From Pyropia yezoensis (Eukaryota > Rhodophyta > Bangiophyceae > Bangiales > Bangiaceae): a DNA stretch of 64,000 bases. The notes below the pieces were generated by a model. The model saw only the letters and a list, made by a program, of their open reading frames with translations, had not been told where the DNA came from and made no database searches. The stretch covers positions 20,868,020 through 20,932,019 of the forward strand of contig CM020620.1 of NCBI GenBank assembly GCA_009829735.1, read 5' to 3'. Each line of letters starts with the position of its first letter. The first letter of the stretch is position 1. The translations under genes and the position numbers were made by a program. Below are positions 25,085 through 60,193 of this stretch, one piece after another.

Positions 25085-25681
25085 GATGCAGGACGGGACT
25101 CAACGGTGTAATTGTACTCGGCTAACCGGAGTCGCCAACGGGCAAAACGTCCATGGGCCCCGTCCATTTTGTAACATTTACTTCAAAGCGGTGAGGTCCG
25201 TGCGTACGAAGAAGCGTATCACCTCCAGGTACGGTCGTAACAGGAAGAGAGCCCAGAAAACGGCCAGAAACTCGCATTCCGTGGTTCTACAGTTCCGTTC
25301 CGCTTGTGTTAGGACCCTGCTCCAGTAACCCACGGGCTTGTAGGCCCTGTCCTCTTGTTTCTGCAGTAAAACGCATCCGATCTGGGCAGCGCTCGCGTCG
25401 ATATCCACAATAAACTGGCCCGAGCGTCGCGGAAGCGCCAGGATCGGCGCGTGCGTTTGACGATACTTGCGCTCCTCGAACGCGTCCGTCTGAGCAGGAA
25501 TGAAAGGAGTCAGAGGGTCGGGTACCTCAGTACTAGTCAAAGCCAACAGAGGGCGGGCCACTTGAGCATAGTCCTTAATAAAGCGACGGTACACGTTACA
25601 CATTCCAAGGAAACTGCGGAGATCCTTCTTGGTTCTCGGTGTCTTGCCTTCCCGTAGCCCGACTAGGTTCTTATCGTTCAC
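25085..25681 (-). pseudogene. Retrotransposon RT thumb and RNase H, 3'-truncated
   Basis: The frame 25681-25178 reads from the RT thumb (FLGMCNVYRRFIKDYAQVARPL) into RNase H, with DIDASAAQIGCVLLQ, KPVGYWSRVLTQAERN, a TECEFLAVFWAL stretch and RTDLTAL. A stop follows at 25178. In another frame RLRLAEYNYTVESRP continues to about 25085, so a frameshift lies between. Beyond that no integrase HHCC or D,D-35-E motif can be found. It would have degraded the RNA strand of RNA:DNA hybrids during reverse transcription. Confidence 0.8.
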
Positions 25682-25723
25682 GCGGAGCTGGCCCTTGCCG
25701 ACGATATGGCCAAGGTACTCGAC

Positions 25724-26586: not shown

Positions 26587-27078
26587 ACCACGTCATCCTC
26601 GCTGGATCCCCCCATGAATGGGGGGAAGATAAGATTATATCGGGTAGAGCGATTACGCCCGCCCGATTGGAATTGGCCTTCTGGCCAGTGAAGGGAAGTT
26701 ACCTAGGGCGGGCTACTTCCGCCCCAATCTGGCCGAGATTTAGTGAGATTCCTCCAATGAGCGCATTTTGCGTGGTGAGATGTGCTGGAGGGTCCTGAGT
26801 GTTTTGATCGGGTGCTTAGTTTAGGGATTTTGGGCTGCGCCCCGGGGTCCCACAGCGGGCCCTGGACCGGCGGGCCAAAGAGGGATATCTGCGCGTGGGG
26901 CTGTGCCGGTTGCTTTCCCCTCAGAAAAAATCAACCTCGCGTTACCCTCGTGTTCCCCGTCCCGGACGCTTCCACCTCCGCGTGGAGCTTCACGTTCCGG
27001 CGGTTCTGACTCCAGGGTTTATACCCCGGGGTCCCCACCATCTCCTTCAAGAGGATTAGGTACCCCGTTGGTGTGTGT

Positions 27079-28173
27079 TTACGCCCGGATAACCACCACA
27101 GTCTGACGTCTTGCCCTTCGTATCCGGCTCGGGTACCGTGGTTCCATCGGATCCCTCAGGGGTCTCGCCCCCCGGTGACGACGCTTGGCCCGACGAGCTC
27201 CCTTGCTCGGTTCCCAGCGTAACAATAGGGTCTGCCCCCTCACTATGGGCCAGAAAAAAATCAGGGGGGACTCGAGCACGGGTCCGTCGTACGGGATAGC
27301 GAGGCGAACGGAAACGTTCTTGGGCAAGTTGACCGCCCGGTTAGAGATCCTCATGACGTAGATCCGGAAGTCCCGACGGGTCCGTACGTTCGCCAGGGCG
27401 TTACGCAGACGGAGCCCTTTCTTACCCATCTTGTGCGGCCCTTTCATGAAGTAAACATCGTCTGTTCGTTCCGCACTGGACGTAGACCGCTTGCAGGGAC
27501 CGGGGTGCCACAGTTATACCCTTAGAGAGGTACAGGGCCGAAGGATCTTGACGTACGGGGTTACCCTTCACAGAAAAAGTGTTCTTCGTCTTACCGTCCC
27601 ACGTCCTCTTGGCGTACGTCAGGAAACCCAGGTTCCAAAGCACAGACTCTGTTCCAGGGTAGATTGCCGTGACGTGCTCTTTCTGAAAGTCCAACCCGAG
27701 GAGCAACGGTACCCAGCGGGCCCTGAACACGAGGAACTCGAACTCCATCGGCCTCCCTTTCACAATAACCGGAAGTTCCACGATCCCACGGGCCCGTCAC
27801 AACTGACCCGAGGCATCACATACCACATCATACCCGGAAGTTCCGCGATCCCACGGGCCCGTCACAACTGACCCGAGGCATCACATACCACATAAGACGT
27901 CGATTTGGGGGCCCTCGACGCCAGTCGTTGCCATCCGTCAGGGAGGATGTCCTTGCGTACCACGCTTGGCCCACCACCAGTGTCCAGGATAGTAGTGGTG
28001 TCCTTCGGTTCCTCCTTGTCCAATCGAACCAAAGCATTCAAAGCAAAGTTCCTTTTACGCAGTACAAGCAAGGTACCCTTGAACCCATAGGGCTTCTTTA
28101 TCCCCATCCGACGTGGGAGCCCAGAATCGCATCGTCGTGCCAGAGAGGGTAAACAGGAACAACGGGTGGTCAA
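27079..28173 (-). pseudogene. Retrotransposon aspartic protease and PR-RT linker, broken
   Basis: The frame 28173-27862 contains TTTILDTGGGPSVVRKDIL, with the DTG catalytic triad of a retropepsin. It ends at a TGA in the second arm of a tandem duplication. The frame 27781-27422 continues with VPLLLGLDFQKEHVTAIYP, the C-terminal protease signature. The frame 27447-27079 (VMRISNRAVNLPKNVSVRL) is the usual PR-RT connector. In the complete element these would be one polyprotein. The roughly 490 bases between this and the RT frame have no open frame and contain two C/G hairpins near 26550-26640. Confidence 0.72.
27769..27893. repeat. 65-bp tandem duplication inside the protease gene
   Basis: The 60 bases at 27769-27828 recur at 27834-27893 with a single difference (GTTCCACG versus GTTCCGCG), a period of 65. 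Because 65 is not divisible by three, the duplication shifts the reading frame. The TGA that ends the upstream protease frame is present in both copies, so it was there before the duplication. Confidence 0.9.
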
Positions 28174-28596
28174 AGCAATATAAAATAAATAGGAGACTCA
28201 GAACGTACAGGTCTAACGGGGCCCTTAAAAATCTTGGAGAAATCCTACGCAGTTGCAAACGAGCAGGTAACATGCCGACGATGGGGAGGGGACCGCTTCG
28301 ATCCGCCCCCCGTTACTGTTTCCGCGAGGGTCTCGGCTCCTGGGAACCGTCGTTCACATGGTACCCTTGGTCCGCGTCGTCATCCGACAGGTTAATCCCT
28401 TCACAAAGGGCCTGAAGCATGGCAACGCGGATCTGACGATGGAACTGGCGGTCCGCGTTCGCCTTCACCTCGATCCTCTGACTCCGTACACGGGTGGCCG
28501 CAAGGAACGAGTCCCGGGCCTGGAGAACCGATTTCCGTTGGGCCTCAGACTACGTGGAACATTGATGGCCATGTGACCCTGTTCCCAACACAGGTA

Positions 28597-30018
28597 TCAA
28601 CGGAAAGGGCGCCAACTGTCCGTGTTACGTGCTCCTACGAACTGAGGCGTGGATCCCTTAAGCCCGAACACTTGGCCCGACCCGTTCTTTTCAGTTTCCT
28701 TCTCGAGGTGGCCCTTAAGGATCGTAGAGTGGCCCATAGGATTAACGGCCATCAACGGGGACGAGTTCAACGACCGATTGGGCCTCGGTTTAGTGGGTCT
28801 GCGGACGGTTCCAGAGGGGCCAGCCTTGGTCACAGAGAACCCTCGGGCCATGCTGATAACCTCGGTAGCCGCCTTGTTCTTGCCCGCAGTAAATGTTACC
28901 AGCTGCTGGTACGTACGGTCAGGGATATTGTAGGCAAATCCGTCCGCACGTAGGTACTCAGGGAGCCCTTGAATCAGCTGCTGTTTCATGGTACCTTCGG
29001 TGTGGATGCTTCCGCATACTTCCGTCAGACCCTGTGGGCGTACCGCAAAGGCCTCGATCCCCTCATCCGGTTCTTTGGCGACCCGACTGAATTTTTCCTG
29101 CGCCAGTGCCAACGCATGGGCTTCAGCGTACGTTTCAAGGAACCATTTACCAGCCTCGGGGTAGCTCGTGATCAAAGCGCCACCTGACGCTCTTGAAGAT
29201 TCCGGAAGGGCCCGAGTGTACCGTACTTCCGCGTCACCAGACAGGAAATGAGGGATCGCGTACAGGGCCATGCCCTCGGAAACCCCGTTCTCGTTACATG
29301 CCTCAACCAGCTTGCGGAACCTCGTGAACACCTTGAGGGCTTCTTTCCCAGAGAAATTAGGGTACCCAGCCAAAAACTGTCTCATGTTACGAGCAGCCCG
29401 TCCTATCTTGGGTGCTTCTCGCGTTCCATAGGTCGATTTCTTGTTCCGTAGGCGGTACGTACGATAGTCCAGGACCCGAGCAAGGCGATCATCGGAACAC
29501 TTGATTACTTGGGGCTCGGTTCGTGGGTTCTGAATGGGCTCCAGGTCCTCCTCGTAATAGACGGATGAAAGTGTGGTACCAGAGGAAGAAGAGGATGAGG
29601 AGCCACTCGAATGGTGACGACGCCGACGACGGCGGGAACGAGAACAATCGGAGCGACTGATATCACGGGACACACCCTGGCCAGCAGGACTCTGGCTCAG
29701 GGCCTGGGAAACAGTAGCCAAAATCTCATCTAGAAACGTTTCCAGCGTGGTAACAATGATTTGGGACCCAGCAGCAGTAGCCAAAGGTGGAACTCGAGTC
29801 CCTGACTCGGAGCCCGTGTCCCTGCGTAACTCCTGACCCATAGTAGCCCGGATTCCACCCGGGGGCGCTGTCCCCCGACGAGTAAGCCTTGTCTGCCCGC
29901 CTCCGCCACGCTTAGACAGACCCGAGGGACCGCCGCGGCCACGGCCAGCGGGAGTAGCCATCGAAGCGTCCGACGGCCAACCACGGCCCCGACCGCCCAA
30001 TTGGATAGACTCCGTCAT
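28597..30018 (-). pseudogene. Retrotransposon gag (capsid) frame, ends at a stop within a former zinc knuckle
   Basis: The frame has 473 residues from the ATG at 30018. The N-terminus is Gly/Arg-rich, followed by a basic Ser-rich stretch (RSRRRRRRHHSSGSSSSSSS) and then a retrotransposon capsid-like domain (NMRQFLAGYPNFSGKEALKV, AGKWFLETYAEAHALALAQE, GTMKQQLIQGLPEYLRADGF). Gag forms the particle that packages element RNA. The frame stops at 28597. Two codons later the same frame reads CWEQGHMA, the middle of a CCHC zinc knuckle, and the stop sits where the first Cys of the knuckle would be expected. A further frameshift follows. The frame is otherwise intact for 1.4 kb and could still yield a capsid-only protein. 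Confidence 0.75.
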
Positions 30019-30053
30019 GCTGGCCGTACGGCACTCGACCTGAACCAAACGAT

Positions 30054-40204: not shown

Positions 40205-40515
40205 TTCCCCCCTCCCTTGCCCCCCGCCCCGCCATCGCTGCTGCCATCAGGAGCGCGCCCGCAGCCCCCACCGCGCAAGAGTGCTCCCAGTTACCACCAC
40301 CACCAGCCTGCGGACGAACCCCCCCCCCACACCGCCTGGCGGCCCGCCCCACGTACGCCCCCCTCCTCGCCGCCGAACGAAGCTTGCGTTGCCCGCCCCC
40401 TCCTGCGCCCCCCTCTCCCCGAAAGGGCCCTCCTCTCCCCCCTCTCCCACGACTCCTCCCCTCCCCCCCCTCTCCGCAGAGACTCCCTTTGCTTCCCCTC
40501 TTTCGGCCACCCACC

Positions 40516-42393
40516 ATGGCGGGGCCCACCGCCAGCGGCACCGCCCGCCGCAACGAGGCTTTTGACAAGCGCGTGGCGGCCGCGACGGTCGCGCGGGAGC
40601 GGGTGCACCCGCCCCACGCGGCCAACGGGGAGGAGTACGAGTACCGCGCCACCTTTGACCGCCACCCCGCCGTCGCTGCGGCCAAGGCGGCGGCCGCCGG
40701 CGCCTCGAGGGAGGCGTCGAATGGGGACCCGGGCGCCACCGACGGCGGCGCCACGGCGGCGGGGGCGCCGCCTTCATCCCAGAGCCAGGTGCAGGGGCCG
40801 TCGCACATTGGGTCCTTCACCAAGGGTCTGCAGCACAACCTGTCGACGGGCCTCCTGGAGGACCCCGCCGCCTTTCGCGCCTTTGTCCGCGCCATTGACA
40901 GCGGGGACCCGCGGGACTTTGTCGACGTGCCCATTGCGGACCGCTTCACCCGCCCCCCCACCCGCGGGGTGCGGTCGTGGGAGTCGGCGTCGGCGGGGCT
41001 GGCGTTTGACCTTCAGGGCCCCGATGCGCAGGCGCTGACCATGCCCCCCGCCCCGCGGCTGGGCAGCGCGGAACTGGTGGCCGAGATGATTGAGGTCTAC
41101 GCCATGGCGCTCGCGCGGGATGTGCCGTTTGCGACGGCAGAGTGGGCGGCGGCGAAGCCCATCGCCGCGGCGGTGCGTGAGCTCAACGCCACCCGCTGGC
41201 ACGGCGCCGCGGCAACCGACCGGGAGCTGGGCCTGTCGCCCGCGGCGGCCGCCCGTCGGCGGGTGACCCACTTCACCCCAGCCACCGTCTTTCGAGGCGT
41301 CGGCCGCGGGGTGGCCGACGGGCCCTACCTGTCCCAGTTCCTGCTGCTGGGCAACGCGGGGGTGGGGGGATCCTCGGGTGCCCCCACCGACGGCTTCATC
41401 ACGTACGGCGCCAACCGGGTAGACCTGCGGGTGCCCGTTGCGACGCCGGGTGTCGACTACCTCACCGACTGGGAGTCGTTTGTCGACGTCCAAAACGGCG
41501 CAGACACCCGCGGCACCGAGACGTACGTGCCCGCCGCGGATGGCACCAAAACCCGCTTCATTGCCACCCCGCGGGACCTTGCCACGTACGTCCACTACGA
41601 TGCTCTGTACCAGGCATACTTGAACGCGGCTCTGTGGCTGCTAGCCGAGGGTGTGCCCTTTGACGCGGGCCTCCCGTGGACCGCCCCCGACGAGGTGGAT
41701 CATCAGCAGGGGTTTGCCACGTTTGGGGGCCCCCACCTGCTGACGCTCGTCACCGAGGTGGCCACACGCGCACTCAAGGCGGTGCGCTTCCAAAAGTTCA
41801 ACGTCCACCGCCGCCTCCGGCCCGAGGCGGTGGGCGGCCTCCTCGACCGCCTGCCCGTCGCGCCAGGACCGCTGGCGCCAGTGGCCCCGCTGGCAGAGGA
41901 GGCGGCCGAGACGCTCCGCCGGGTGGCTGATGCCAACGCTGCCGCCGCTGCGGGGGGCAGTGGCGCCGGTGCGCCCGTTACGCACAGTGTGCTGCTGCCA
42001 ATGGCCTTCCCAGAGGGCTCCCCGATGCACCCCTCCTACGGCGCCGGTCACGCCACCGTTGCGGGCGCGTGCGTGACGGTGCTCAAGGGGTGGTTTGACG
42101 CGGGCCACGCGCTTGGCACCACCGCGTACGAGGCCACCCCCGACGGGAGGTGTCTGCGGGAGGTGTCCACCGGCGGGGTGGCGCTGACGGTGGAGGGGGA
42201 GCTGAACAAGCTCGCCGCTAACATCTCCATTGGCCGCAACTGGGCGGGTGTCCACTACTATAGCGACTACATTGAATCGGTGCAGCTGGGCGAGGCGGTC
42301 GCCATTGGGATCCTGGAAGAGCAGAAGCTGACGTACGGGGAGAACTGGAGTATGACCGTGCCCCTGACAGACGGCACCACCGTGCGCATCTGA
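40516..42393 (+). CDS. Vanadium-dependent haloperoxidase (bromoperoxidase type)
   Basis: Intronless, 625 residues from the ATG in CCACCATGGCG; the frame is open for 44 codons before it but lacks an ATG. Vanadium haloperoxidases use H2O2 to oxidise bromide (and iodide or chloride) to hypohalite and are typical of red and brown algae. The vanadate site can be read directly: Lys427 and Arg435 (KFNVHRRLR, spacing 8), His505 and the Gly511-His512 pair (SPMHPSYGAGHA), Arg574 and His580 (GRNWAGVH, spacing 6). These spacings match Corallina and Ascophyllum enzymes. His505 occupies the position that is His in bromoperoxidases and Phe in the fungal chloroperoxidase, favouring bromide/iodide. The Ser that normally precedes Gly-His is Ala510 here. 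No signal peptide is visible, so the protein is probably not secreted by the classical route. Residues 55-95 are an Ala/Gly/Ser linker. Confidence 0.93.
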   Translation: MAGPTASGTARRNEAFDKRVAAATVARERVHPPHAANGEEYEYRATFDRHPAVAAAKAAAAGASREASNGDPGATDGGATAAGAPPSSQSQVQGPSHIGSFTKGLQHNLSTGLLEDPAAFRAFVRAIDSGDPRDFVDVPIADRFTRPPTRGVRSWESASAGLAFDLQGPDAQALTMPPAPRLGSAELVAEMIEVYAMALARDVPFATAEWAAAKPIAAAVRELNATRWHGAAATDRELGLSPAAAARRRVTHFTPATVFRGVGRGVADGPYLSQFLLLGNAGVGGSSGAPTDGFITYGANRVDLRVPVATPGVDYLTDWESFVDVQNGADTRGTETYVPAADGTKTRFIATPRDLATYVHYDALYQAYLNAALWLLAEGVPFDAGLPWTAPDEVDHQQGFATFGGPHLLTLVTEVATRALKAVRFQKFNVHRRLRPEAVGGLLDRLPVAPGPLAPVAPLAEEAAETLRRVADANAAAAAGGSGAGAPVTHSVLLPMAFPEGSPMHPSYGAGHATVAGACVTVLKGWFDAGHALGTTAYEATPDGRCLREVSTGGVALTVEGELNKLAANISIGRNWAGVHYYSDYIESVQLGEAVAIGILEEQKLTYGENWSMTVPLTDGTTVRI

Positions 42394-45239: not shown

Positions 45240-46496
45240 ATGGACGCCACCGCCCAGGCCGCGGAGGGCGCCAGCGGCACCACCCTCATCTCCCACCTGC
45301 TTGAGTCCCTGACCAAGCGGTCCAACTACCTGGAGGAGGGGGTCATCCACACCAACGTGGATTCGGCCGTGTCGGATGGGGACTCCCTGTCGGACCTGGT
45401 GACGCTCCTGTCGTCCATCACGCTGGCGGTCAAGACGGTCGGCTCTATGGTCCGCCGGCTGGGCCTTCCTGGAAGCGAGGCGCGCAGCGTCAATGACATC
45501 AACAGGATTGCCAACGAGACGTGGATTCGGGAGCTCACCTCCTCGGACGCGTGCTGCGTGCTCGTGTCGGAGGACCTCGCCGACCCGGTGGTTCTCGACT
45601 CCCCGCACCGGGGCACCTACGCGGTGGTGTTTGACCCGCTGACGGGCCTGGCGGACCCTCCGGCGCAGGATATGGGCGCTATCTTTGGCGTCTTTCGGCA
45701 GCTGACCAACGAGACCAAGCCGGGGGTGGAGGACGTGTTGCAGCCGGCGCGCAACCTGGTGGCCGCCGGCTACGCTGTCTATGGCGCCGCTACGATGATG
45801 GTGCTGTCGTACGGTGCGGGCGTCGACGGCTTTACGCTCGACCCGACGCTGTCTGAGTTTATTCTCACCCACGAGAACATGCGGGTGCCCTACTCGGGCC
45901 GCATCTACGCCATCAACGAGGGCTTTGCGTCGACGATGGACCCCAAGGCGCAGACCATGTTGCGGGCACTCAAGGACGAGCCCGCCCTCGACGGCTCGAC
46001 CCGCACGTGCCGGTACATTGGATCCATGGTACCCGAGCTCCACCGCACCATCATCCGGGGCGGCGTCTACATCTACCCCGCCCACGCGGAGCGTCCGCAG
46101 GGGCGCCTCAAGCTGCTCTACGAGGCGGGCCCGCTGGCCTTTATCATTGAAAAGGCGGGTGGCCAGGCGAGCACCGGCACCCGCGCCATCCTCGACATCC
46201 AGCCCGAGAGCGTGCACCACAGGGTAGAGTGCTACATGGGCTCAGAGGACGACATCAACCTGTGCACATCGCACTTCCGCACCGCCCCCTGGGGCCGTGG
46301 CCCATCTGCCGACCCCATGTACTCCCTCCGCCGCAGCCGCAGCATTGACGCGAGCATGCGTGTGTCGCTCGAGGCGGGGCTTGACGTGGCCGCCAGGTCG
46401 GGGACGGGCACGCTGGCGGGCTCCCCAAAGAAGATGGCCGCCGGGCTCGGCGGGGAAGAGGACGGCTTTGTCTGCGCCTACCTTCCTGTGCTTTGA
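45240..46496 (+). CDS. Fructose-1,6-bisphosphatase-like protein lacking the metal-binding motif
   Basis: Intronless, 418 residues from the ATG in GTCGCCATGGAC. Family landmarks over the whole length identify class I FBPase: LVSEDL (108-113), HENMRVPYSGRIYAINEGF (211-229), RYIGSMVPELHRTI (258-271), GGVYIYPA (274-281), LKLLYEAGPLAFIIEKAGG (290-308) and the final GSEDD turn. The catalytic metal loop, however, reads FDPLTGLADP (131-140) where active enzymes have FDPLDGSSN. The first Asp (132) and Glu295 are kept, but the second metal Asp is Thr135, the following Ser-Ser is Leu-Ala, and the loop is one residue shorter. The Lys that binds the sugar phosphate is Arg289. The Asp-rich N-terminal metal loop is also rearranged (VNDINRIANET). 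Catalysis of fructose-1,6-bisphosphate hydrolysis is therefore doubtful; a regulatory or sugar-phosphate-binding role is inference. There is no plastid redox-loop Cys pattern and no clear transit peptide. The last 70 residues are a low-complexity tail. Confidence 0.85.
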   Translation: MDATAQAAEGASGTTLISHLLESLTKRSNYLEEGVIHTNVDSAVSDGDSLSDLVTLLSSITLAVKTVGSMVRRLGLPGSEARSVNDINRIANETWIRELTSSDACCVLVSEDLADPVVLDSPHRGTYAVVFDPLTGLADPPAQDMGAIFGVFRQLTNETKPGVEDVLQPARNLVAAGYAVYGAATMMVLSYGAGVDGFTLDPTLSEFILTHENMRVPYSGRIYAINEGFASTMDPKAQTMLRALKDEPALDGSTRTCRYIGSMVPELHRTIIRGGVYIYPAHAERPQGRLKLLYEAGPLAFIIEKAGGQASTGTRAILDIQPESVHHRVECYMGSEDDINLCTSHFRTAPWGRGPSADPMYSLRRSRSIDASMRVSLEAGLDVAARSGTGTLAGSPKKMAAGLGGEEDGFVCAYLPVL

Positions 46497-47444: not shown

Positions 47445-50400
47445 TCACACCGCCACCCTGCGGCTGGGCTTGTGGGTCACGTGGAGCCACTTGAGGCTGC
47501 AGTAGGCAGCAACGCGAAAGAGGGCAATCCACAGCAGCAGCACGCCGACGTTGCCCGCCACGCCCAGCCCGTCGTCCACCTCCCGCGCGCGGTAGATGGC
47601 GGCGGCAGTGACGGGGCAGACGCGGTCACCGGGGGTGCCGGGGAGGCCCCCCGAGTAGATGGTCGGCACCGCGGCACAGGGAAAGGTGCGTCCTTGCACC
47701 TCTGTGATTACCATAGCTTCAAATCCATACTGGGGGGGGCAGCAATGGGCGGAGGAGTGGATAGGGGGGGGTGGGGGGGGGGGAGGGACAGGATTCCAAA
47801 CCACCACGTAAACATAGGCAAAACGTCCAGAGTGTCGGGACACACCCGCATGTATGTACATACAGCCACGTTAGTGACATTCGCCCGCGCCCACAGGCGC
47901 TTCAAGCCTCCATGCGCCACCGCTCCCACCCCCCGATGGTCGCTATCGACTTCTCGCCCGTCCGCCACCCACGCACCCTCCCTGCCCCCCCACAGCCGGC
48001 ACCCTCTCTCTGAACATACCTTGATAAAGCTAAAGGTCTTCACCCACGCAATCCACCCCGGCAGCGTATTGTTGTTGACATAGTAACCGCCGGCGAGGAG
48101 CGCGAGCAGCACGGTGAGGCTGCCGAGCACCTGTGCCAGCTTGACGTTTCGCACCGACGCCGACACAAACAGCCCAATTGACTGGGCGGTGAGGACGATG
48201 AGCGCCAGGATAAACAGGTGGAGGGCAAACGCGCCCGCCGACGAGCGGAGGCCCGCCATCCAGTAGGCCACGATCGAAAAGAGGGCGGGGTAGAGGAGCT
48301 CCACCGGCGTCTCGACGGTGGTCTTGGCCACAAAAAACGCCGACAGCCGGTACGCCCCCGACGAGCGCTCCTTGTGGAGGACCGGCCCCTCGGCGGGCAT
48401 AAACGAAAAGATGGCGGAAAACATGGGGATGAAGGAAAAGAAGACGCAGATGAAGAAGAGGATGGACACCCGCTCATCGAGCGTGCGTTCCGTCTGCTCC
48501 AGCTGGAACCACATGATGCCGACGAGGAAGGCAACCGCCACAATCTGAAACATCTGCACCCACTCGAGTACCTCCCCACGCCGCTGGATGGCAGACCGAC
48601 CGCCCAGCACCACCGCCTGGGTCCACCAGCCGACGGGGTACTTGCGTGGCTCCTCCCGCACGCCGGGCGTCCGCACCCGCTTCCGCACCGACCGCGCCGC
48701 GCCGGCGGCGGTGGTGGCCAGCAGGCCACCCCCACCGGCCCCCCCCGGCCCGACCGCGGCGGCGGTGGCGGCGGGCGACGACTCGGCCGCAGCAGCAGCG
48801 GCAGCGGCCGCAGCGGCAGTCGCCACCGCCGCCGCCACCGCTGACGCGCCGTCCCCCGCGGCCTCGCGGGCGGCCCAGGCGGCTTCGAGCTGCCGCGTCA
48901 CCGGCTGGGAGCCGTCGGGGGCAGCGTCGGTGAGGAGCTGGAGGAAAAAGTCGCACGGGTTGTAGTGGGGCGGGCACGGCAGGCCCAGCGACGCAAAGTG
49001 GGGGAGTGCCCCCTCCGCGGGCCCGCTGTACACGACGCGCCCCGACGACAGGAGCATGATGTTGTCAAAGAGGGCGAGCATCTGGGAGGATGGCTGGTGG
49101 AGGGTGGTGATGATGGTGCGCCCTTCGTCAGCGAGCGCCCGCAGCAGCCGCACGACGGTGAGGGCAGTCGCCGAGTCGAGGCCGCTGGTTGGCTCTGCAA
49201 GCAGAAAAGGAGGAGGGGGGGGGGGGGGGGGGGCACGGGCAGACAGAGTCATCCACCAAGATGCGCGGTCATATCGGCGCAAGTAGAGGAGTAGGCAGCC
49301 ATCGGATGTGTGTGAGTTGGGGTCTTCTTCCACGGGCACGCCCGCCGCTGTCACCGCCGCCACCGTCTCCCACCCACGCTGCACGGCATGCAACACCGCC
49401 AGTCGGGCAGGGGTGCTCCTCCTCCCTCTTCGCAGTCTCCCACTCCCACCCCCCCCCCTCCCCCCCCCTCCCCCTCCCCCCCGCCCCTCCCCAACCCCCA
49501 TACCGTCCAGCAGCAGCGTCGACGGGTCGGTCAGCAGCTCATTCGCAATGTTCACGCGCTTCCGCTCCCCCCCCGAAACGCCCTTGACCACCACCCCGTC
49601 GCCCATGAGGGTATCCGCACACCCCTCGAGGCGCAGCTGGGCCAGCACCCCCGCCACCCGCGCCTCCCGCTCTGCCCGGCTGGCGCCGCGTATCCGCAGG
49701 CGGGCGGTAAAGCGGAGCGTCTCGGCCACGGTCAGGCGGGGCGAAAAGATGTCGGCCTGCATGCAGTAGGCGAGCTGCCGCCGCAGCCGGCGCCCGCGGG
49801 GGGCGCCCGCAAAGGTCATGGTGCCGCCCGACGGGCCATACTGTGAGCGCCCGGCGAGGAGGTTGAGGAGGGACGTCTTGCCGGCGCCCGACGGGCCGAG
49901 CAGGACGGTGAGCTGGCCGGCGGGCGCCACCCCCGACACCCCGTGGAGGATGCGGTTGGTGTTGGGGGCGCGGGGGGGGGTGCCGGTGGGCGCCCTGGCG
50001 GCGGCTGTGGCGGCGGTGGCCGTGCCGGTGGCCGCGTCCCCGCCGCCCACGCCGTTTGGCGCGGCAGCACCGTCGGCGGCGGGCGTCTTCATCGCCAGTG
50101 GCCGTGAGGAGCCAGACGATGACCCAGACGACACGCCCGATGACAGGCCGCTATCATCCCCCTTGGCCGTGAGGTCTGCCGGCACAGCAACCGGCGTCGC
50201 CCCGTTAGCCATGTGGGTTGGCAGCAGCGGCCCCCTCCCGGCGGGGGGGCTCCCACCGCCCCCGTCCCCATTGCCGCCGCCGCCGCCGCCACCGCTGCCG
50301 CGGCCCGTAAGGGCCGCCAGCCACGCGCGCGCGCGGGCGGCGGGGGAGGTGGTACTGGCAGGGCTGACGGGCACGTCGTACGACAGTCCCGACCATGAAA

Positions 50401-50482
50401 CGCCGGCCATGGTCGCGGCGTCTGGGGTGGGGGGGGCAGGGACAAGAGGGGGGGGCGCGGGGGGGAGCGCCGGGGAGTCCAT
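47445..50482 (-). CDS. ABCG-subfamily half-transporter (three exons)
   Basis: The exons deduced are 50482-49504, 49194-48020 and 47729-47445. Introns have borders GACG|GTATGG..GCAG|AGCC (309 nt, phase 1) and AAG|GTATGT..CCCAG|TATGG (290 nt, phase 0), giving about 812 residues. Residues 1-175 are low complexity. The ATP-binding domain follows: Walker A GPSGAGKT (196-203), signature VSGGERKR (302-309), Walker B LLLD-E (Asp326, Glu327 rebuilt across intron 1), then PTSGLDSATA and the switch His359 in TLHQPSS. The C-terminal half has the ABC2 membrane domain with about six helices (for example SILFFICVFFSFIPMFSAIF) and the ABCG-specific YGFEAM..E..G..F.C motif at the start of exon 3, ending in a last helix, VGVLLLWIALFRVAAYCSL. 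As a half-transporter it must dimerise. Substrates in this family are lipids, sterols or xenobiotics. Start chosen at GCCACCATGGAC; another ATG lies at codon 25. Confidence 0.9.
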
Positions 50483-53400
50483 GGTGGCCGCCTCCACGAG
50501 GAAAGGTGCAAGGTGTAGGCCAGACGAAAGGGAGTAAGGGGGGGGGGGGGGGATGCAGACGGGAGGGGGAGGGATAAGTGAGCGGATGAGAGGACGGGGC
50601 AAGAGGGCGGACGCTGGTGGCGGTGACTGGGACGACCACAGCGACGGGAATGAAGGGGTGCCGCCCTCCCCGCGACCAGCGACAGCGACGGCGAGCGTGG
50701 TGGAGGGGGCGAGCTGGGCGAGTTGGGGCAGAGGGGGAGACTGAACTGCTCGCTACGGATGTGGACACCCGCCCGCCCGCCTCCCCACCAGCTTGGCGGC
50801 GGCGGCGGCGGTGGCGGCGGAGCGTGCCAGCGCTGCTGACGGGCCGGCCAGCAGCGCTGGCAGAGGCGACGGCCGGCCGGCCGGCCGGCCTGCCACGTGC
50901 GGTCGCGGCGGGACGGACGCACCCGTCTGCTACGGCCATCTGTGGCCACAAACGGCGGGCGGGGCGGGGTGTGGAATGTCGACGATTCATCGTATCAGGG
51001 GGGCGGGGGGGTGGCATCTGTAGAGGGTTGCACGCGTCTGACGGGCGTGGCTGCCCGCCTCCACCCGCTCCTTCCATCCATTCCAAACCCTGCGGGGCAC
51101 GCCCCTCCCCTCCCACCCCCCGCCCCCCCCCGCCCCTCCCTCTTCAAGCCAATCCCCCGGCCGGTCCCGGGCCCCGTTGCCGGGATCGGGACGCCAGTGG
51201 GCGGCGGGTGTGGAAGCAGAGGCGGTGGATAGGAATGAGGGGGGGGGGGGGGGGTGGTGGCGGGCGGCTGGGGGGGCGGGCGGCGGGCGGGCGAGTACGA
51301 GACCCCTGTTGTACGCACGTCCTTGGCAGTGGCGGGCGCCTGCGTGGCGCGGCACGTGGGCTCAGACCGCCGGCGAGGCGGCGGTGGCGTCCATACAGCC
51401 CAATCGCGGCAAGGTCGGATGGCAACGAATATTGTGGGTGAGGTGCGGAGAGGGGGGGGGGGGGGGCGGGGGGGGGGAGGGGGGGGGGAGGGGGGGAGGG
51501 GGTGGCGCTGTCTGGCGGCGCGGCGCCCACCCGCGGCTGTCTGGCGCCACGCATCTCCCATTGTCGTGCGGCACTGGCTGGGGTCCCGACCGGGGGGGGG
51601 GGACTGTGATCAAGTCCTCACCCATTGGGTGGGGGGCCGCCGGCGTCAGCACGGCTGCGGCCACAGCCTTGCGAGCTCGTCCCTCCATCCGACGCCCATT
51701 GGCCCCAGCCCCGAGTGGACGCGCCAGCCGGGATCCCGCGGCGCCGTCGACATCGTCTGGGCCCCGGGGCGCGATGACGCTCCCACTGCAACGCACCGGG
51801 GTCTGCTGTAGCCGAGGCTCGACGGTGCCATACACCCTCGTCCCCGCCTCACCCCCCAAGACGAGGTGCCATTCGGGGGTCCCACCCCACCGCCCCGCTT
51901 TGCAGCAGGTGGCTGGGGCACTTGGGGGGCGGGAGGGGGGAGGACGCGCCGCGCCACTATTGCGGGTGTTGCGCGGCGCGCGTGGCCGCGCGTGTCCATG
52001 CCCGCCTCCTTGATAGGCGGCGGGCACACCCCGCCGGCACCCGGCTACAAGGGCAGAACGGGGATTGGGGGAGAAGGTACGCTGCTTCACCTGACCTCCT
52101 GACCTGACCTCCCACTGCACGTGGCCGCGTCGGCGTCTGTGGTGGGGGGGCGTGTCGCCTGCCGGGGAGGGCGCGGCGGCTGGCGGACCAACCGGCGGGG
52201 CCGTGAATCACTCCCGTGTGTACATACATACTGTAACTCCACGGGAGTCGAGCGGCGCGAGTCCGGTGGGGAAAGCCCGCGCCCAGCGATGGCCATCCAA
52301 ACCGGGACGTCCGCCATACCGACCACCGCGCAATGGTCGCATGCCTCTCCCCAGCCGCCGGCGGGTGGAGGTTGAGGTTCCTCGCGGAGTGAAGCAGAGA
52401 GAGGTGGGGGGGATGGGGCGGGGCGTCATGGGAGAGGACGCCCTCGCTTGCCTGGTCCCCCTTTGCCACGCCTCCCTTACAGAGGGGGCGTGGATGCGCG
52501 CTACGCCTGGCGCCCACGCCAACCCCCTGCAATAGCCCCTCATGGTCGGCCGGTTTGCCCTTGCAACCGTAACCTTGTTGGCCACCCCGCCGACCGCCCA
52601 CCTCCCGATCCCGGCGTTCCACACACCTTCCCTGCCGCGCTCGAACAAGAGAGCAAAGTCCTCGTTGCCCCGTAGGCACGCTATGGCCCTGCCGCGGTCG
52701 ATCCTGCCGCGGTCGACCGGCCTCCCCTCCGACCCCGTCTCGCTCACCGCACATTCACCCCTCCCCCCGCAATATCGCGCCCCCTTATCGAAAAAATACC
52801 CTCCGGGGGCAGACGGTCGACGCTGTCCCCTCTGGCCAGGGCCGCGTCCCCGCTCCCCCCTCCACAATCCGGGCACGAGCTGGGTGGATTGAGGTGAGAG
52901 GGGGGATGGACGACAGGCTCACTGCAGCGTGGCCACGTCCTGGCGCAGCGCCACCGCCCGGCTTGGCGCGTCCACCCTGCGCCCCCTCCTTGTACGGTGT
53001 GCGGCTTGCCCCGTACCCTCACAGAGCGGACGCTGGACTGCACGGGTGCTGACCTGGCGGGCAAGCTGCCGCAGGCACTGCCAGCAAAAGCGCGGAAAAG
53101 ATAGGAGAAAAAAAAAGAGGGAGGGACGGTGACGGCCGCCTGGTGTGGCGGACAGACCGCCTCACAAGGAACGACCTCCCAATATACCACCCGCCCCGCC
53201 CCTCCGTCCTACCAGCCGCCCCCTCCGCTCGCAAACACAGTTCCCTCATGTCTGCCTCCGTGCGCGACGCTGAGACGATACGCCGCTCTAACGGGAAGGC
53301 AGAGGACGAGGCTGTGGGGAGAAAGAGGCAGGCGAGCACCTATAGCTATAACAGCCGCCGTCCAACACCGTGGTCACCATGGTGGACAACATCGGTCGCC

Positions 53401-53543: not shown

Positions 53544-55281
53544 TCACCCGCGCCACGCGCCCGAGGCGGCGGTGGCCGCGGCGGCCGCGACGGCCCCGCC
53601 GACGCCGACCACCGCCGCGGCCGCGACGGCGGCATAGTAGGTGCCAACGTCGGCCGCGGCCTCGGCGGCGCGCACCCGCGCGAGCAGCGCTGTCACCCGC
53701 ATGGCGGGGGCGGCCGCCGGGCCACCCCGCGCGAGGACGTCTGCCAGGAAGACCGCGTCGTCCGTGTCGCGGGCATCGCCGGGGGCTGCGGGGCGCGTGT
53801 CGGCCACGGGGGGGGCGGTGGGGGGGGCAGCGGCTGGCAGCACGTCAATGCCCGCGACGGCTGCCATGGACCGGCGTGCGGGTGGCGGGGAGGCGGGGGG
53901 CGGGGGCACAGCCGCGACGGCTGTCTTCAGCCCCGCTGCCGCCGCCGCTGCCGCCGCCGCTGCCGCGCGTGGCGCCGTGGAGTCTCGGTCGGCGGTGGCA
54001 CGCAGGGGTGGTGCTGGGGTGGTCACGAAGGCGGCGTCGACAAGCGACACCGCCTTACCGCCATCGGGGACGCCGCCAGGCGATGGCGGGCAAGTTGCAG
54101 TGGCCACCTCGGCAGACGGCGGCGGCTGCCGCGGCGCCACCAACTCGGGCTGCCCGCCCGCGGCGGGTGCGGCAGCGGCGGCGGTGACGGAAAGGGGTGA
54201 GGCGGGGGTGATGCCGCTGCCAGCCAACCCCTCCTCTTCCAAACGGCTGGGAGGAGATGGTGCAGTGCGCCCGCTTGCGCGAGGAGCGGGGGTGACAGGA
54301 AAGCCCACCTCCCCCACAGGCGACCCCCAGCCCGCAAGAGCGGGGGATACAGGGGAGCCCACCTCCGCCACGAAAGTCCGCCTGCCACGTCGTACCGGGG
54401 TGACGGGGTAGCCAGCCTCCGCCATTGAAACTTCCCTCCCGCCCCCCTCGCGCAGGACAGACAGGAAGGGCGCGGGCGGGGGACCCCCCGCGGCTGCAGC
54501 CCCTTCCTCCCCCCGGAGCGCCGCCACCTCTGCCCTCAGCCGGGCCACCTCCGCGCCAAGGGCCGACAGGGACTCCCGCAGCGCCGCCGCCGCCCCACCG
54601 CCACCCCCCCGGCGCGCCCCCCCCGTCGTCACTGCGCGCATGCCCCGCAACCGGTCAACAAACGCCAGCGTTGCGGCCGACGCGGGACCCCCGCCGCGCA
54701 CCGCCGCGACCACCACCAGCGTGGAGCCGCCGGCGAGTGCGCCGCGCGCCGCCCATGTCAGGCCGCTGTCACGGTAGGGCACGTGGCCGCCACCGCCGCC
54801 GCCGCCGCGGGGTGGAGGCGCCCGCCGTGCGTCGACGACGCGAGCGAGGGCGGATAGGCCCGCGTGGATGGCGCCCGTCTCCGACACGGGCCGCATGGGA
54901 GGCGGCGGCGGCGGCGGGGCCGGCGGCGGCGGCCGCGCGGGGATGGGGCAGCCCTCGCCCGCTGCCGCCGCCAATGCGGCTGCGGCTGCCGTCGAGGCGG
55001 TGGCGGCGGCGGCGGCGGCGGCGACGGCGGGTGACGGCCGCCGCCGCTCCGCGCCCGCTGTGTCAATGAGAGTGAGGGTGGCCCCCCCGGGGGGCAGCGA
55101 CAGCCGCAGTAGCGCGTGGGAGCGGGACGACACCCCATTCGCAGCCGTCGCGGCGGTGGCGCGACGGCGGGCGGCGGCGGCGACGAGCGCGAGCGCCTGC
55201 GCGGGTGTTGCAGCGGCCACTACCGTCGGTGGTGGCGGGCGGCGGCCCCCGCCACCGCCGCCGCCTCCGCCGCCGCCGACG

Positions 55282-55327
<46 letters not shown>

Positions 55328-56006
55328 GGCCTGCGGACCGTGGCGGCGCGGCGGAAGGCGCGGCGGGGGATAGCAGGTCTACCACCCGGTGGCCCACCAC
55401 CTCCACCACCGACACGCCCAGCGTGATGACCACGCTCTCGGCGGCGGCGGTGGCCCCAAGCGGCTCGACCGCGGCCACCGATGCGCCCGCGGCTGCCACC
55501 GTCGCGGCGGCCGCAAACAGGCCCTTGATCACACCCCCCACCAGGCCCGCGCTGGTACGTTCGCCGCTGCCGCCGCCGCCGCTGCCGGCTCCGCCGCTTC
55601 CCCCCGTCACCCCCCCCGTCAGGGCGGTGGTCTTTCCCGAGCCGCTCGCCCCCACCGCCAGCACCGTTGCGTCGGCGCCCGCCGCGACGGCCGCCACCGC
55701 CGGCGCGCCGGCGGCGGCGTAGAGCGCCGCCGCCTCTGTCACCACCGCGTCGACCGAGTGGGCCCGCAGCGGCAGCGGCGGCGGCGGCGTCGGCGGCGAC
55801 GACGCCGCCGCCGCAGCCGCCGCCGCCGCCGCCGCCGCGAGGCCCCTGATGGCCGACGGCGGGGGGGGGGGGGGTAGCCGCACCACCGCCGGCGCGCCAC
55901 CGGCGGGGCGCTCAATGACCAGCGGCGGGTCTCCCGGGTGGGGGTGCGGGTGCACCTGCACCACGGCCGTGACGGCCATGGGTGGGGGGGGGGGTGGGGG
56001 GGGCAT
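53544..56006 (-). CDS. Divergent kinesin motor protein with giant Gly/Ala insertions
   Basis: The open frame has 820 residues from the ATG at 56006 (another ATG nine codons later). The motor core is recognisable despite extreme GC composition: P-loop VGASGSGKTTALTGG (118-132), VSVVEVVGHRVVDLL (198-212, the strand before loop 8), switch I NGVSSRSHALL (about 290-300), switch II LIDTAGAER (about 313-321, replacing the usual DLAGSER), and HVPYRDSGLTW..ALAGGSTLVVVAAV near 460-490. Kinesins move along microtubules using ATP. Loops between these motifs are swollen by a run of about 26 Gly before switch I and by long Ala stretches after switch II, so the motor is unusually long. After the motor comes a short Leu/Arg/Glu heptad-like segment (ALRESLSALGAEVARLRAEV) and a Pro/Ala-rich tail. 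The frame stops within a GTGAGT splice-like site, so the true C-terminus may lie in further exons. The family class cannot be assigned. Confidence 0.82.
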
Positions 56007-57823
56007 CGCTGCACCTACCTCCCTTGCCGCGCCGCGAGGGTGGGGTTGGCGCGGCGCGTTTTGGGGGGAGAGGGGGAGACGGGCGGCAGTAACGACCACG
56101 GTCGTCAGTGGGGGGGTGGGGGGGGAAGCCGGAGATAGAAGACAAAGCGGCAAGGGGTGTCACGAGAGAGCGCGAGTCGGAGAAGGGGGAAACGGACAGG
56201 GGAGCCGCTCGTGGGGGGGAAGATGGGATGGCCTTTCTGGGGAAACGGGGGAAGAGGTCGGCGCTACCCGCAGGCCCCGTCGTCCTGCGCCGAGGCGCGA
56301 CGAAATCGCCGCCGCAACCGCAGCCGCCGCCGCCGCCGCCGCCGTTAACGCAGCCACCGCTACCGCCTCAATCGCCGCGGCTGGTGTCGTGACTGGCGGC
56401 CGCACCTCCCCACCCACCCCCCCCTTGAGCGGCGGCGACAGCAGGATAGGTGCGCGTCGGCCGCGGGAGGACCCCCCCCCCCCGCCTACCCCACGACGCG
56501 CCCCGGCAGAGGAGATGTCTGCCTGTCCCCCGTCCGCCCCGGCCACGCCCGCCAGCCTCTGCACCTTCACCACCCCCCCCCCCCCTCCCCACACCCCACG
56601 CAGTCCACCCAGGCGCTCACCCGGCGCCGTCCACCATGCGAGGCGGTACGGCGGGAGGGGTGGGGGGTTGTCGTGGCAAGCGCGACCGTGCTCCCCACCG
56701 CCAGCGCTGCCCCCGCCACCTGCCCCCGCCCACCCTCCCCCCCCCCCCCGTGCCGTCCCACTCTCGCACCTCCCCGCAGACACATCCCCCCTCTCCCCAG
56801 CATATCCCATGTCGGCGAGGTTGGGCAGTCGGCGCGGATTTCCCCCCCCTGGTGGGCGCAGTCTCCCACCGGCGACCGCTACCTGCCACGCCCGTCTGCA
56901 AGGCGGCGGCCGTGGCCGGGACGGGTTTGCCCCGCACGGGGCCCCACCGCTACGTACGTCAGGCACGAACACCAGGGAGGGGGAGGGGGAGGGGGGGTTG
57001 GTCCGGCCGAGTCACAGTCAGTGGTCATCCACCACTGGCTCGCATCTGGAGGCTGCCTCGCCGCGTGACTGGGCTGGACGGTGACGGGCGAAGGGGGGAC
57101 GTGGGGTCCCTCCCGGGAGTGAGTGGGAAAAAGGAGTGCGGCGGGGGAAGGGGGGGAGGGGGGGGGGCGCGGCACCAATGACGCCGCGAGGAGGGGGGGA
57201 GGGCGGTGGGTCGGCGACCGCAGCGTAGCCGACCGGTGGCGCAACGTACGCGGCAGCGGTGCGGTGGGCTATCTGTCGTGGGGCGGCACCTCGTTGGCGA
57301 TGACGGGGCGGGGATCCCGGGACGACAGCCCGCAACGGCGGCGCCCCGGTCCAGGCGGCACGGGTGCGGGGTGGCCCCGGGCAGGACGCCATCAAATCCG
57401 CCACGTGAGCACTCTGTAAACGACTGACGGGGAATGATCCAAATTATCGAGCGCTCGGACTACTTTATTATTAAAAATTACAATTGGTCAAAGACCTGAC
57501 TTCAATTCGTTACAAAGTCAGTTTGCTTGCTATACTGGCAATCAAACTGACTTGACTACCCAGCCGACATTCCCATGTATTTCATAATTTGTGCATGCAA
57601 TCATTGCGTTGACTGGTCGATTGCTCATTCGACAGGCCACTGTCACCTCTGGTCTGCGTGGCCCGCCACCCCCCGTGATCCGCTTCTGCTGCCACCCCTC
57701 CCCCCCCCAACCTCGGCCGCCCCCTGCGGTCGTCACTGCTGCATGGTTGCTCGTCCGGCCGGCACGCCGCCGCAGCTGACGCCGGCCCCCCATTTCCCCT
57801 TTTGCTGTGTCTGAGCCACCGCA
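56007..57823. other. Divergent intergenic region between kinesin (-) and isoamylase (+)
   Basis: About 1.8 kb serving as the 5' side of both flanking genes. Most is GC-rich low-complexity sequence with open frames on both strands that encode no recognisable domain. An AT-rich island at about 57425-57600 stands out, with CTTTATTATTAAAAATTACAATT and paired motifs CAAAGTCAGTTTG and CAATCAAACTGACTTG (an imperfect inverted repeat). It is the best candidate for promoter elements of the isoamylase gene. Confidence 0.4.
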
Positions 57824-60193
57824 ATGGTCAAAAACTCTTCGGCAGGTGCCTCCGCGTGGGGCGCCTCCATCTCCGTCCTCCACCGCGGGCGGCCGCTGCC
57901 GTATGGATGCACCGCCACCGCCGGCGGCGGCGGTGGCGCCGCCGCCGCCACTGACACTGGCGCCGGCGGGGCGCTCAACTTTTCCGTCTTTGCCAAGGAG
58001 GCCGCCCACGCGGTGCTGCTGCTCTTCCCCCCCACCACCGCGGCGCCAACGGCCGACGGCGGCAATGGCGGCGACGGCGGCGGCGGCGGCGACGGCGATG
58101 GGCCGGCCGCGGCGGCTGCGCCCGTGGAGCTGCGCCTGGACCCTGCGCAGCACCGGACGGGCATGGTGTGGCACGTTGCGGTGGCGGGTGTCCCCCCCCG
58201 CACCGAGTACCTGTGGCGGATAGGCGCGGCGCCGGACCCCCGGTGGTACACCAACGAGTGCCTCGACCCGTACGCGCGGGAGGTGTCGTCGCCAACGGGC
58301 GCCGGCATGTACAACGCCGTCGACGTGCGGGGGGATTACCGCCCACGTGGGGTGGTGCCAACGGTGGGCGCCCCAGAGTTTGACTGGCAGGGGGTGGTGC
58401 CGCCGCGCATCCCCCAGCACGAGCTGGTCATTTACGAAATGCACGTCCGTGGCTTTACCCTCCACGCGGACGCTGAGGGCGCTGCCGCTGCTGCGGATGG
58501 CGGCGGCGCTGTCGCGGACGGGCCGGCCAAGGGGGGGACCAAGGCTACGACGGCGGGCGGGGGGGCTGGCTCCAACGGTACCTTCTTGGGGGTGATTGAC
58601 AAGATCCCCTACCTCCGTGCGCTCGGTGTCAACTGTGTGGAGCTGCTACCAGTGATGGAGTTTAACGAGACGGAGTGGTCCTTTATCAACCCCGTCACCA
58701 ATCAGCGGCTGTCTCAGTACTGGGGATATTCCACCGTCGCCTTCTTCGCGCCCATGAACCGGTTTGCGCAGGCAGACGCGACGGTGGAGTTCCAGACGAT
58801 GGTCCGGGAGCTCCACCGCGCTGGCATTGAGGTGATCCTGGACGTCGTGTACAACCACACGGCCGAGATGGGTCTGGACTTTCTGCCTCCCGGGCACTAT
58901 GGGCAAAAGACGCTCGCGCCGGGCACATACTACATGCTCGAGGACAATGGCGCCAAGTTTGTCAACTACTCGGGCTGCGGCAACACTCTGTCGTGCAACA
59001 ACCCGGTGACGGCAGAGTGGATCCACGAGTCCCTTCGCCACTGGGCGCTGACCATGGGCGTCGATGGCTTCCGCTTTGACCTGGCGTCTATCCTCACGCG
59101 CGGCACCGACGGGGCGGCGCTGGCCAACCCGCCTGTCGTGGAGCGGTTTACCAAGGACCCCTGCATGCGGGACGTCAAGCTGATTGCCGAGCCGTGGGAC
59201 TGTGGGGGCCTCTACCAGGTGGGCACCTTTCCGCATTACGGGGTCTGGTCCGAGTGGAACGGCAAGTTCCGTGACGTGGTGCGGCAGTTTGTCAAGGGCG
59301 ACCGGGGCCTCAAGGGCGCGTTTGCGTCGCGCCTGTGTGGGTCCCAGGATATGTATGGCCCGTCGGGGCGGGCACCGTACCACTCGGTCAACTTTGTGAC
59401 TGCCCACGATGGCTTCTCCCTGTACGACCTGGTGTCGTACAATGACAAGCACAACGAGCACAATGGGGAGAACAACAATGACGGGGAGCAGCACAACAAC
59501 AGCTGGAACTGTGGCGCCGAGGGCGAGACATCCGACCCAGAGGTGCGGTCACGGCGTGACCGACAGATGCGCAACATGATGGTGGCGCTGCTCGTGTCGG
59601 CGGGGACCCCCATGCTGTGCATGGGCGACGAGTACGGGCACACCAAGGGCGGCAACAACAATGGCTGGTGCCAAGACGGCCTGCTGACCGCGTTTAACTG
59701 GACGGTGTTGCGGGACGGCCTTGACGGCCTCCCCCGCTTTCTTGCCAAGCTCATCCGCCTGCGCACGCGGACGGCGCCCTACCTGGCGCGCACCACCTTT
59801 TACTCTGGCTCGGAGATTGTGTGGCACGGGGAGCGCCCCGGCGAGCCCGCCTGGGACGACGGCTACAACTTTCTTGCCTTTACCATTCCCGACCCGCGGC
59901 CGGCTGCCGGCGCCGACCTGTACGTGGCGTTCAACGCGGGCGCCGAGGCGCGCACCGCCGTGCTGCCGCCCGCCCCCGACTGTGGCTCCTGGGGCCGCCT
60001 GGTGGACACGGCGCTCCCGCCGCCGCGGGACTTTAGCGACGACCCCGCGGCGCACCCCATTGCGCACACCTACGGGCTGGCGCCCTACTCGGCGGTGGTG
60101 CTCGTGCACGTCCGCCGGCTGTGCCCGGAAGCGACCGCCCCAGAGGATGTCACCGCCGCGCTGCGGGCGGGGCTTGACCGGGTGGCGCTCTGA
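57824..60193 (+). CDS. Isoamylase-type starch/glycogen debranching enzyme (GH13)
   Basis: Intronless, 789 residues. The N-terminal CBM48 beta-sandwich (about 48-150, NFSVFAKEAAHAVLLLF and HVAVAGVPPRTEYLWRI) is followed by the GH13 barrel. All four conserved regions are intact: DVVYNH (340-345), GFRFDLASIL (415-424, nucleophile Asp419), AEPWDCGG (455-462, acid/base Glu456) and VTAHDG (525-530, Asp529). It hydrolyses alpha-1,6 branches in glucans. In red algae this acts in trimming floridean starch, which is stored in the cytosol, and the absence of a transit peptide fits that. Two Gly/Ala-rich insertions interrupt the conserved fold (about 75-100 and 218-250), mirroring the loop expansion seen in neighbouring genes. 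HYGVWSEWNGKFRD and GDEYGHTKGGNNNGWCQD are further isoamylase-type signatures. The start ATG has a purine at -3, and GC-ending codons run throughout. Confidence 0.95.
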   Translation: MVKNSSAGASAWGASISVLHRGRPLPYGCTATAGGGGGAAAATDTGAGGALNFSVFAKEAAHAVLLLFPPTTAAPTADGGNGGDGGGGGDGDGPAAAAAPVELRLDPAQHRTGMVWHVAVAGVPPRTEYLWRIGAAPDPRWYTNECLDPYAREVSSPTGAGMYNAVDVRGDYRPRGVVPTVGAPEFDWQGVVPPRIPQHELVIYEMHVRGFTLHADAEGAAAAADGGGAVADGPAKGGTKATTAGGGAGSNGTFLGVIDKIPYLRALGVNCVELLPVMEFNETEWSFINPVTNQRLSQYWGYSTVAFFAPMNRFAQADATVEFQTMVRELHRAGIEVILDVVYNHTAEMGLDFLPPGHYGQKTLAPGTYYMLEDNGAKFVNYSGCGNTLSCNNPVTAEWIHESLRHWALTMGVDGFRFDLASILTRGTDGAALANPPVVERFTKDPCMRDVKLIAEPWDCGGLYQVGTFPHYGVWSEWNGKFRDVVRQFVKGDRGLKGAFASRLCGSQDMYGPSGRAPYHSVNFVTAHDGFSLYDLVSYNDKHNEHNGENNNDGEQHNNSWNCGAEGETSDPEVRSRRDRQMRNMMVALLVSAGTPMLCMGDEYGHTKGGNNNGWCQDGLLTAFNWTVLRDGLDGLPRFLAKLIRLRTRTAPYLARTTFYSGSEIVWHGERPGEPAWDDGYNFLAFTIPDPRPAAGADLYVAFNAGAEARTAVLPPAPDCGSWGRLVDTALPPPRDFSDDPAAHPIAHTYGLAPYSAVVLVHVRRLCPEATAPEDVTAALRAGLDRVAL

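Follow-up and report, generated by a model that had tools for sequence, protein, structure and literature searches.

FBPL1 of Pyropia yezoensis, a class I FBPase homologue whose active site has degenerated, is probably a pseudoenzyme kept for a regulatory role

Introduction

Pseudoenzymes as such are well known, and among them yeast Gal3 and the class II plant trehalose-phosphate synthases are sugar-sensing proteins that derive from enzymes of sugar metabolism. FBPL1, an FBPase homologue of the red alga Pyropia yezoensis (nori), would resemble them in being related to a metabolic enzyme and standing beside an active paralogue, with its active site partly lost and its substrate pocket perhaps kept. 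Gal3 and these synthases belong, however, to other folds and families, and FBPL1 is known from its sequence; the likeness is one of functional analogy only. The closest described system by descent is class I FBPase itself (PF00316 and PF18913), with which FBPL1 has in common both domains, the predicted fold and, in rabbit numbering, E97, D118 and E280 as well as N212, R243, Y244 and Y264, whereas it differs by D74N, D121T, S123L, N125D, I126P, K274R and R276K, a short loop and an extra tail. SBPase is of the same superfamily, but its match to FBPL1 in the PDB is weak and the SBPase-like gene of this genome (L009) keeps the DPLDGSS motif that FBPL1 lacks.

The authors of PMC5349122 regard the MMS role of yeast FBP1 as partly separable from catalysis and cite similar reports for human FBP1; catalytically inactive FBP1 mutants are described there without added MMS sensitivity (PMC5349122), a result that lends weak support to a role for a dead FBPase. 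Yeast FBP1 is one active, moonlighting protein, whereas nori has a separate and seemingly specialised gene. Full-text searches of open-licence PMC papers, outside which lie most subscription journals and the bioRxiv preprints, listed neither an FBPase pseudoenzyme nor a pyrophosphatase-FBPase fusion.

Results

The window, that is, the whole stretch of 64,000 nucleotides that was analysed, belongs to contig C3 of a 107.5-Mb assembly of 11 contigs. FBPL1, delimited by its open frame and its Pfam matches, is a single-exon gene at 45240-46496 (+); its product of 418 aa is homologous to class I FBPases, but its active site is degenerate. Its frame comprises 418 codons plus the stop and has no internal stop, in agreement with the clean frame described in an earlier note on this DNA. 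The FBPase landmarks that the note had seen are matched by two Pfam domains, FBPase N and C, well above their cut-offs (126.3 bits against 34.8 and 135.1 bits against 27), and its claim of normal host codon use was examined through GC3, the value of 0.880 lying at the upper end of the range of 0.740-0.880 among eight FBPase-family frames measured in the genome. Against the NCBIfam equivalogs for class 1 FBPase, the best score of 278.4 bits (NF006778) lay below the curated cut-off of 368, a weak test because these models serve bacteria and archaea.

The solved structures closest to FBPL1 in a PDB search were vertebrate FBPases (E 6.6e-76). An SBPase identity was rejected because FBPase is far closer, the SBPases of the PDB matching with E values from 2.7e-14 to 3.1e-13. 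An AlphaFold model (mean pLDDT 80, pTM 0.77) has the FBPase fold, and the 50 rows listed from a Foldseek search with this model were all FBPases (target-normalised TM-score 0.87-0.94), a support that is partly circular because an alignment of FBPases went into the model. By homology FBPL1 is a class I FBPase, and judged by its residues it fails the catalytic-feature tests for an active FBPase (EC 3.1.3.11). Its N-terminus, without obvious transit-like sequence, suggests a cytosolic location.

Among the other frames of the window, an isoamylase-type starch debranching enzyme with Alpha-amylase, CBM48 and ISOA1-3 C-terminal domains lies about 11 kb downstream of FBPL1 (57824-60193, +), and a vanadium-dependent bromoperoxidase homologue (40384-42393, +; E 5e-164 to 5lpc) has no Pfam family passing E 0.001. 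The minus strand carries an ABC transporter frame (47708-50602; ABC_tran and ABC2_membrane) and a kinesin motor frame (53544-56153), each of which by eye contains stretches rich in Ala, Gly and Pro, a member of the malate/L-lactate dehydrogenase family (21214-22515; Ldh_2, E 7e-102) and retrotransposon-like fragments (25178-30048), with reverse-transcriptase RNase H domains at 25181-25681 and the rest judged by eye; the part from 28600 to 30048 matched no Pfam family.

A paralogue of FBPL1 is present on contig C2 (FBPL2, or L002; C2:13037963-13039174, minus strand; 458 aa from an upstream start), and the two proteins are identical at 245 of 410 aligned residues (60%). With rabbit FBPase as reference and source of the numbering, the alignment places FDPLTGLADPP of FBPL1 (residues 131-141; 45630-45662, +) where canonical FBPases have FDPLDGSSNID, which corresponds to D121T, S123L, S124A, N125D and I126P in a loop of one residue less. 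Further on, GRLKLLYE (residues 288-295; 46101-46124, +) stands for GKLRLLYE; K274R and R276K are conservative changes, identical in FBPL1 and FBPL2, and the metal ligand E280 is kept. The counterpart of the catalytic loop and Asp74 (FBPase 51-74) was located by alignment at residues 74-88 (LGLPGSEARSVNDIN; 45459-45503, +), and this stretch is 9 residues shorter than in rabbit FBPase in FBPL1 and 7 shorter in FBPL2, as counted by eye on a gapped alignment. Asp74 is replaced by Asn in both proteins; Asp68 is Arg in FBPL1, and Arg or Lys across the pair, and Glu98 is Asp in FBPL1 and Glu in FBPL2.

The earlier note had reported a replaced DPLDGSS motif within 45621-45690, where the altered motif indeed falls, with the Ser-Ser changed, the loop one residue shorter and the substrate-phosphate Lys (rabbit Lys274) turned into Arg, and all of this is seen in the alignment. 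Its statement that the lost Asp holds the second metal does not stand, since PMC3785478 places Asp121 among the ligands of metal site 1. As to the extent of the damage, the motif and the Lys were correctly named, but the changes reach further than the note had it, to D74N, S123L, N125D, I126P, R276K and the shortened catalytic loop. Alanine at Asp79, Glu109, Asp131 or Ser133 of yeast FBP1, in which Asp128-Ser133 correspond to mammalian Asp118-Ser123, leaves no measurable activity (PMC5349122), and Asp74 of pig FBPase positions a catalytic water (PMC5639204).

Conservation was read from 86 canonical rows (80 bacterial proteins, rabbit, two land plants and three from P. yezoensis), in which, over the span of the rabbit fragment, 65 positions were near-invariant (at least 98%); the comparison was made without L009, L010 and L011. 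FBPL1 keeps 47 of these 65 positions and FBPL2 keeps 51, while 14 are lost in both, ten of them by the same replacement (A51L, D74N, D121T, S123L, N125D, I126P, G156A, D251E, K274R and R276K). Losses affect 5 of 10 catalytic positions against 9 of the 55 others (Fisher p = 0.03), a p value to be taken as indicative, the catalytic set having been chosen after viewing the alignment. The bacterial proteins, the best 80 of 566 relatives in genome contigs, are all canonical FBPases, and in 80 of 80 they keep D74, E97, E98, D118, D121, G122 and S123, and likewise N212, R243, Y244, Y264, K274, R276 and E280, the conservation of Y244 and D118 being partly built in because the search patterns covered both. 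Position 68 is Glu in 77 of them and Asp in 3. The residues lost in FBPL1 were part of no search pattern.

The sugar 6-phosphate pocket is represented in the site table of FBPL1 by N226, F229, R258, Y259 and Y279 (45915-46076, +), equivalent to N212, Y215, R243, Y244 and Y264. We take N212, R243, Y244 and Y264 to be the sugar 6-phosphate site of FBPase, and the alignment has all four intact in FBPL1 and FBPL2; position 215 is Phe or Tyr across the pair, Y215F being conservative. This retention is not statistically distinct from that of the remaining positions (none of the 4 lost, compared with 14 of the 61 others; p = 0.57). In the other degenerate homologues of the genome the pocket is mostly lost, and these proteins are also more eroded overall (37 of the 65 positions kept in L006 and 29 in L008). 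A retained pocket together with Lys274Arg would suit the binding of a sugar phosphate without its hydrolysis, although the statistics do not compel it. The counterparts of Thr31 and Lys112, presumably AMP-site residues of FBPase, are replaced in FBPL1. FBPL1 and FBPL2 alike retain E97, D118, L120, G122 and E280, and some metal binding by FBPL1 is plausible because E97, D118, L120 and E280 remain; in human muscle FBPase these four include the protein ligands of the alternate M1' and the M2 metal sites (PMC3785478).

Several observations bear on how the pair arose and was maintained. The motif FDPLTGLADPP is identical in FBPL1 and FBPL2 with 7 of its 11 codons differing synonymously, and 84 of the 245 identical residues are written with different codons. 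The sharing of this motif, of K274R and of R276K implies that the loss predates the duplication. When the 64-kb window was compared with the 60 kb surrounding FBPL2, no further homologous frame was found at E 1e-6, an antisense frame of the gene aside; a segmental duplication was rejected on this ground, and FBPL1 and FBPL2 look like dispersed duplicates.

The NG86 method gave dN 0.36 and dS 0.71 for the pair, a dN/dS of about 0.5 in which dS is distrusted at a GC3 of 0.88, and dN 0.22 and dS 1.00 for the two plastid-type FBPases. This check, proposed in the earlier note, indicates that constraint on FBPL1 and FBPL2 is present, as far as the sequences tell, and looser than on the plastid-type pair. 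In a neutral simulation set to the third-position divergence (500 runs), the maximum was 145 identical residues out of 410, against 245 observed, and 0 of 500 runs remained free of stops (mean 8.3 stops). Of the 25 residues around the altered motif, 22 are identical between the copies, and among 393 overlapping segments 13 attain this level.

FBPL1 and FBPL2 form a clade with 100/100 support, with a stem of 1.4 or about 1.7 in two trees and tips of 0.29-0.54, and this long stem with shorter tips places the catalytic losses mostly before the duplication. The pair stands beside the cytosolic-type FBPases with weak supports of 84/77 and 81/64 in the two trees, and its grouping with the plastid FBPases had a p-AU of 0.205, leaving a plastid origin unrejected. 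The first tree included 15 of the 80 bacterial proteins and was built without the partial frame L010, and the second also without the long branches L009, L006, L008 and L011. Two scans of viral contigs found no relative.

Past the end of canonical FBPases, FBPL1 continues in a C-terminal tail (residues 345-418; 46272-46493, +) that contains LRRSRSIDA and ends in DGFVCAYLPVL. The tails of FBPL1 and FBPL2 are identical at 38 of 74 residues and have the blocks APWGxGPxxDPMxxLRRxxSIDA and DGFVCAxLPVL in common. The LRRxxS (RRxxS) within the first block resembles, by eye, a site for a basophilic kinase. A known or repeated domain was considered and rejected, there being no Pfam domain in the tail and one good genome match, FBPL2; beyond FBPL1 and FBPL2, the search of the genome with the tail gave no match better than E 0.2. 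In the AlphaFold model the tail is mostly of low confidence.

Ten PF00316 loci were found in the genome of P. yezoensis, of which five keep DPLDGSS and five do not. Those that keep it are an intron-containing cytosolic-type FBPase (L005/L007), two plastid-type FBPases (L003 and L004), the SBPase-like gene L009 and an SBPase-like frame, L010 (C2:10997870-10998529; 263 aa open, N-terminal half not located), which would be either an intron-split or a partial gene; the cytosolic and plastid labels are those suggested by sequence similarity and N-termini. As intact cytosolic-type and two plastid-type FBPase genes are present, FBPL1 need not supply this activity. Besides FBPL1 and FBPL2, degenerate homologues with intact frames are L008 (C2:5351216-5352085) and L011 (C1:9911776-9912693), with CFSPLDFD and FLSALDFDD, respectively, in place of DPLDGSS, 49% identity to each other and most of the substrate pocket gone in both.

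The fifth degenerate homologue is part of a pyrophosphatase-FBPase fusion (L006, with L121; C2:12424284-12428033) in which FNPLMGVPG replaces DPLDGSS. Its open exon encodes most of a soluble inorganic pyrophosphatase followed by a degenerate FBPase with D74, E97, E98, D118, D121, N212, Y244 and Y264 replaced, and the N-terminus of the pyrophosphatase comes from a short upstream exon, separated from it by a GT-AG intron whose splice was placed by eye; the predicted protein has 660 aa. The pyrophosphatase motifs of the fusion appear intact. Two PF00719 loci were found in the genome, this one and another with a transit-like N-terminus, for which reason the fusion may be the cytosolic pyrophosphatase. 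The first tree joins L006 with L008 and L011 (98/99), with a warning from the program that joins of long branches may be false.

Discussion

FBPL1 combines homology to an enzyme with the loss of essential catalytic residues, both evident in its sequence, and with signs of selection after that loss, given by the paralogue and the neutral simulation and to be read with a dN/dS of about 0.5 from a single pair. Judging from its residues, FBPL1 very probably lacks FBP-hydrolysing activity, and a maintained function is likewise very likely. We propose that it is probably a pseudoenzyme kept for a non-catalytic and perhaps sugar-phosphate-dependent regulatory role. A pseudoenzyme with a non-catalytic role was also what the earlier note had favoured, and several catalytic losses, their sharing with the paralogue and a divergence smaller than that of neutral drift speak for it.

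A sequencing or assembly error, or a frame misjudged at the motif, can be dismissed almost entirely: an independent locus on C2 encodes these residues too, by different codons, and FBPL1 is open on both sides of the motif. The identical motif in FBPL2, with 7 of 11 codons different, excludes chance or assembly error and argues against any error by which DPLDGSS would be restored in the reads, an objection that the note had raised against itself. Very improbable, too, is a dying duplicate or a recent pseudogene still free of stops. A dN/dS of about 0.5, more relaxed than in the plastid-type pair, would fit such decay, but the copies are dispersed and 40% diverged without a stop, where neutral runs gave a mean of 8.3 and none of the 500 stayed stop-free, and the region of the altered motif (22 of 25 residues) is among the most conserved between them. 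The view of the note that this is not a decaying pseudogene is thus upheld within this genome by an intact, 60%-identical paralogue and by the simulation, both of which contradict a dying duplicate.

Two further explanations grant FBPL1 a function and differ in its nature. It could be a neofunctionalised enzyme whose three remaining side-chain metal ligands, E97, D118 and E280, sustain a phosphatase reaction, slow or of another kind, with some other phosphorylated compound that is recognised by Arg274, Lys276 and the rebuilt LADPP loop. The retention of E97, D118, L120, G122 and E280 in both copies agrees with this, as do the conservative K274R and R276K, the same in the two, and the M1' and M2 sites of human muscle FBPase, which use no Asp121 side chain in a structure of that enzyme (PMC3785478). 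However, Asp74, Ser123 and Asp121 are all replaced and the catalytic loop is shortened, and in yeast FBP1 a single Ala in place of the residue matching Asp121 or Ser123 suffices to abolish measurable activity (PMC5349122); we regard this explanation as improbable, and the altered substrate chemistry that the note had offered as its alternative is less likely than a pseudoenzyme. FBPL1 might instead be a non-catalytic scaffold or oligomerisation partner without any sugar phosphate, of which the fold and the subunit surfaces alone would matter. In its retention the pocket does not statistically exceed the remaining conserved core, and most of it is gone from the other three degenerate homologues, whose frames are intact. 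Nevertheless N212, R243, Y244 and Y264 are all intact in FBPL1 and FBPL2, unlike in those homologues, and K274R and Y215F are conservative, so that a pure scaffold seems unlikely to us, albeit less so than a new enzyme.

In the pseudoenzyme reading that we prefer, a class I FBPase homologue would have lost its FBP-hydrolysing chemistry and then been duplicated to give FBPL1 and FBPL2. The retained fold and sugar-6-phosphate pocket would bind fructose 6-phosphate, fructose 1,6-bisphosphate or fructose 2,6-bisphosphate, and the ligand state would be relayed by oligomer contacts with FBPL1 itself, with FBPL2 or with a catalytic cytosolic-type FBPase, and also by way of the conserved C-terminal tail with its RRxxS site. 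The parts of this scheme are not equally firm: whether FBPL1 binds a sugar phosphate is close to an even question, with the balance slightly against it, and a hetero-oligomer with a catalytic FBPase is a speculative and rather unlikely element.

In red algae storage starch is a cytosolic product, and the control of cytosolic hexose phosphate therefore matters there. To our knowledge, regulators of the sugar-phosphate type considered here are little known in the red algal lineage. The step that links triose-phosphate to hexose-phosphate metabolism is under the control of FBPase. In Pyropia haitanensis FBPase is reported to fall under heat, the gene being left unspecified (PMC5356179). As both Pfam domains pass their cut-offs, an annotation based on domains only would call FBPL1 an FBPase, and some of the Calvin-cycle genes counted in red algae may thus not encode enzymes.

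In summary, if our proposal is true, a conserved pair of dead FBPases would be a candidate sugar-phosphate sensor of nori, a crop. The five degenerate homologues (FBPL1 and FBPL2, the more eroded pair L008 and L011, and the pyrophosphatase fusion), beside five loci with DPLDGSS, lead us to suggest, tentatively and with more doubt than confidence, that bangiophycean red algae have recruited the FBPase fold repeatedly for regulation without catalysis. Together these proteins could link the state of the hexose phosphates to the flow of carbon in the cytosol, for example into floridean starch or floridoside.
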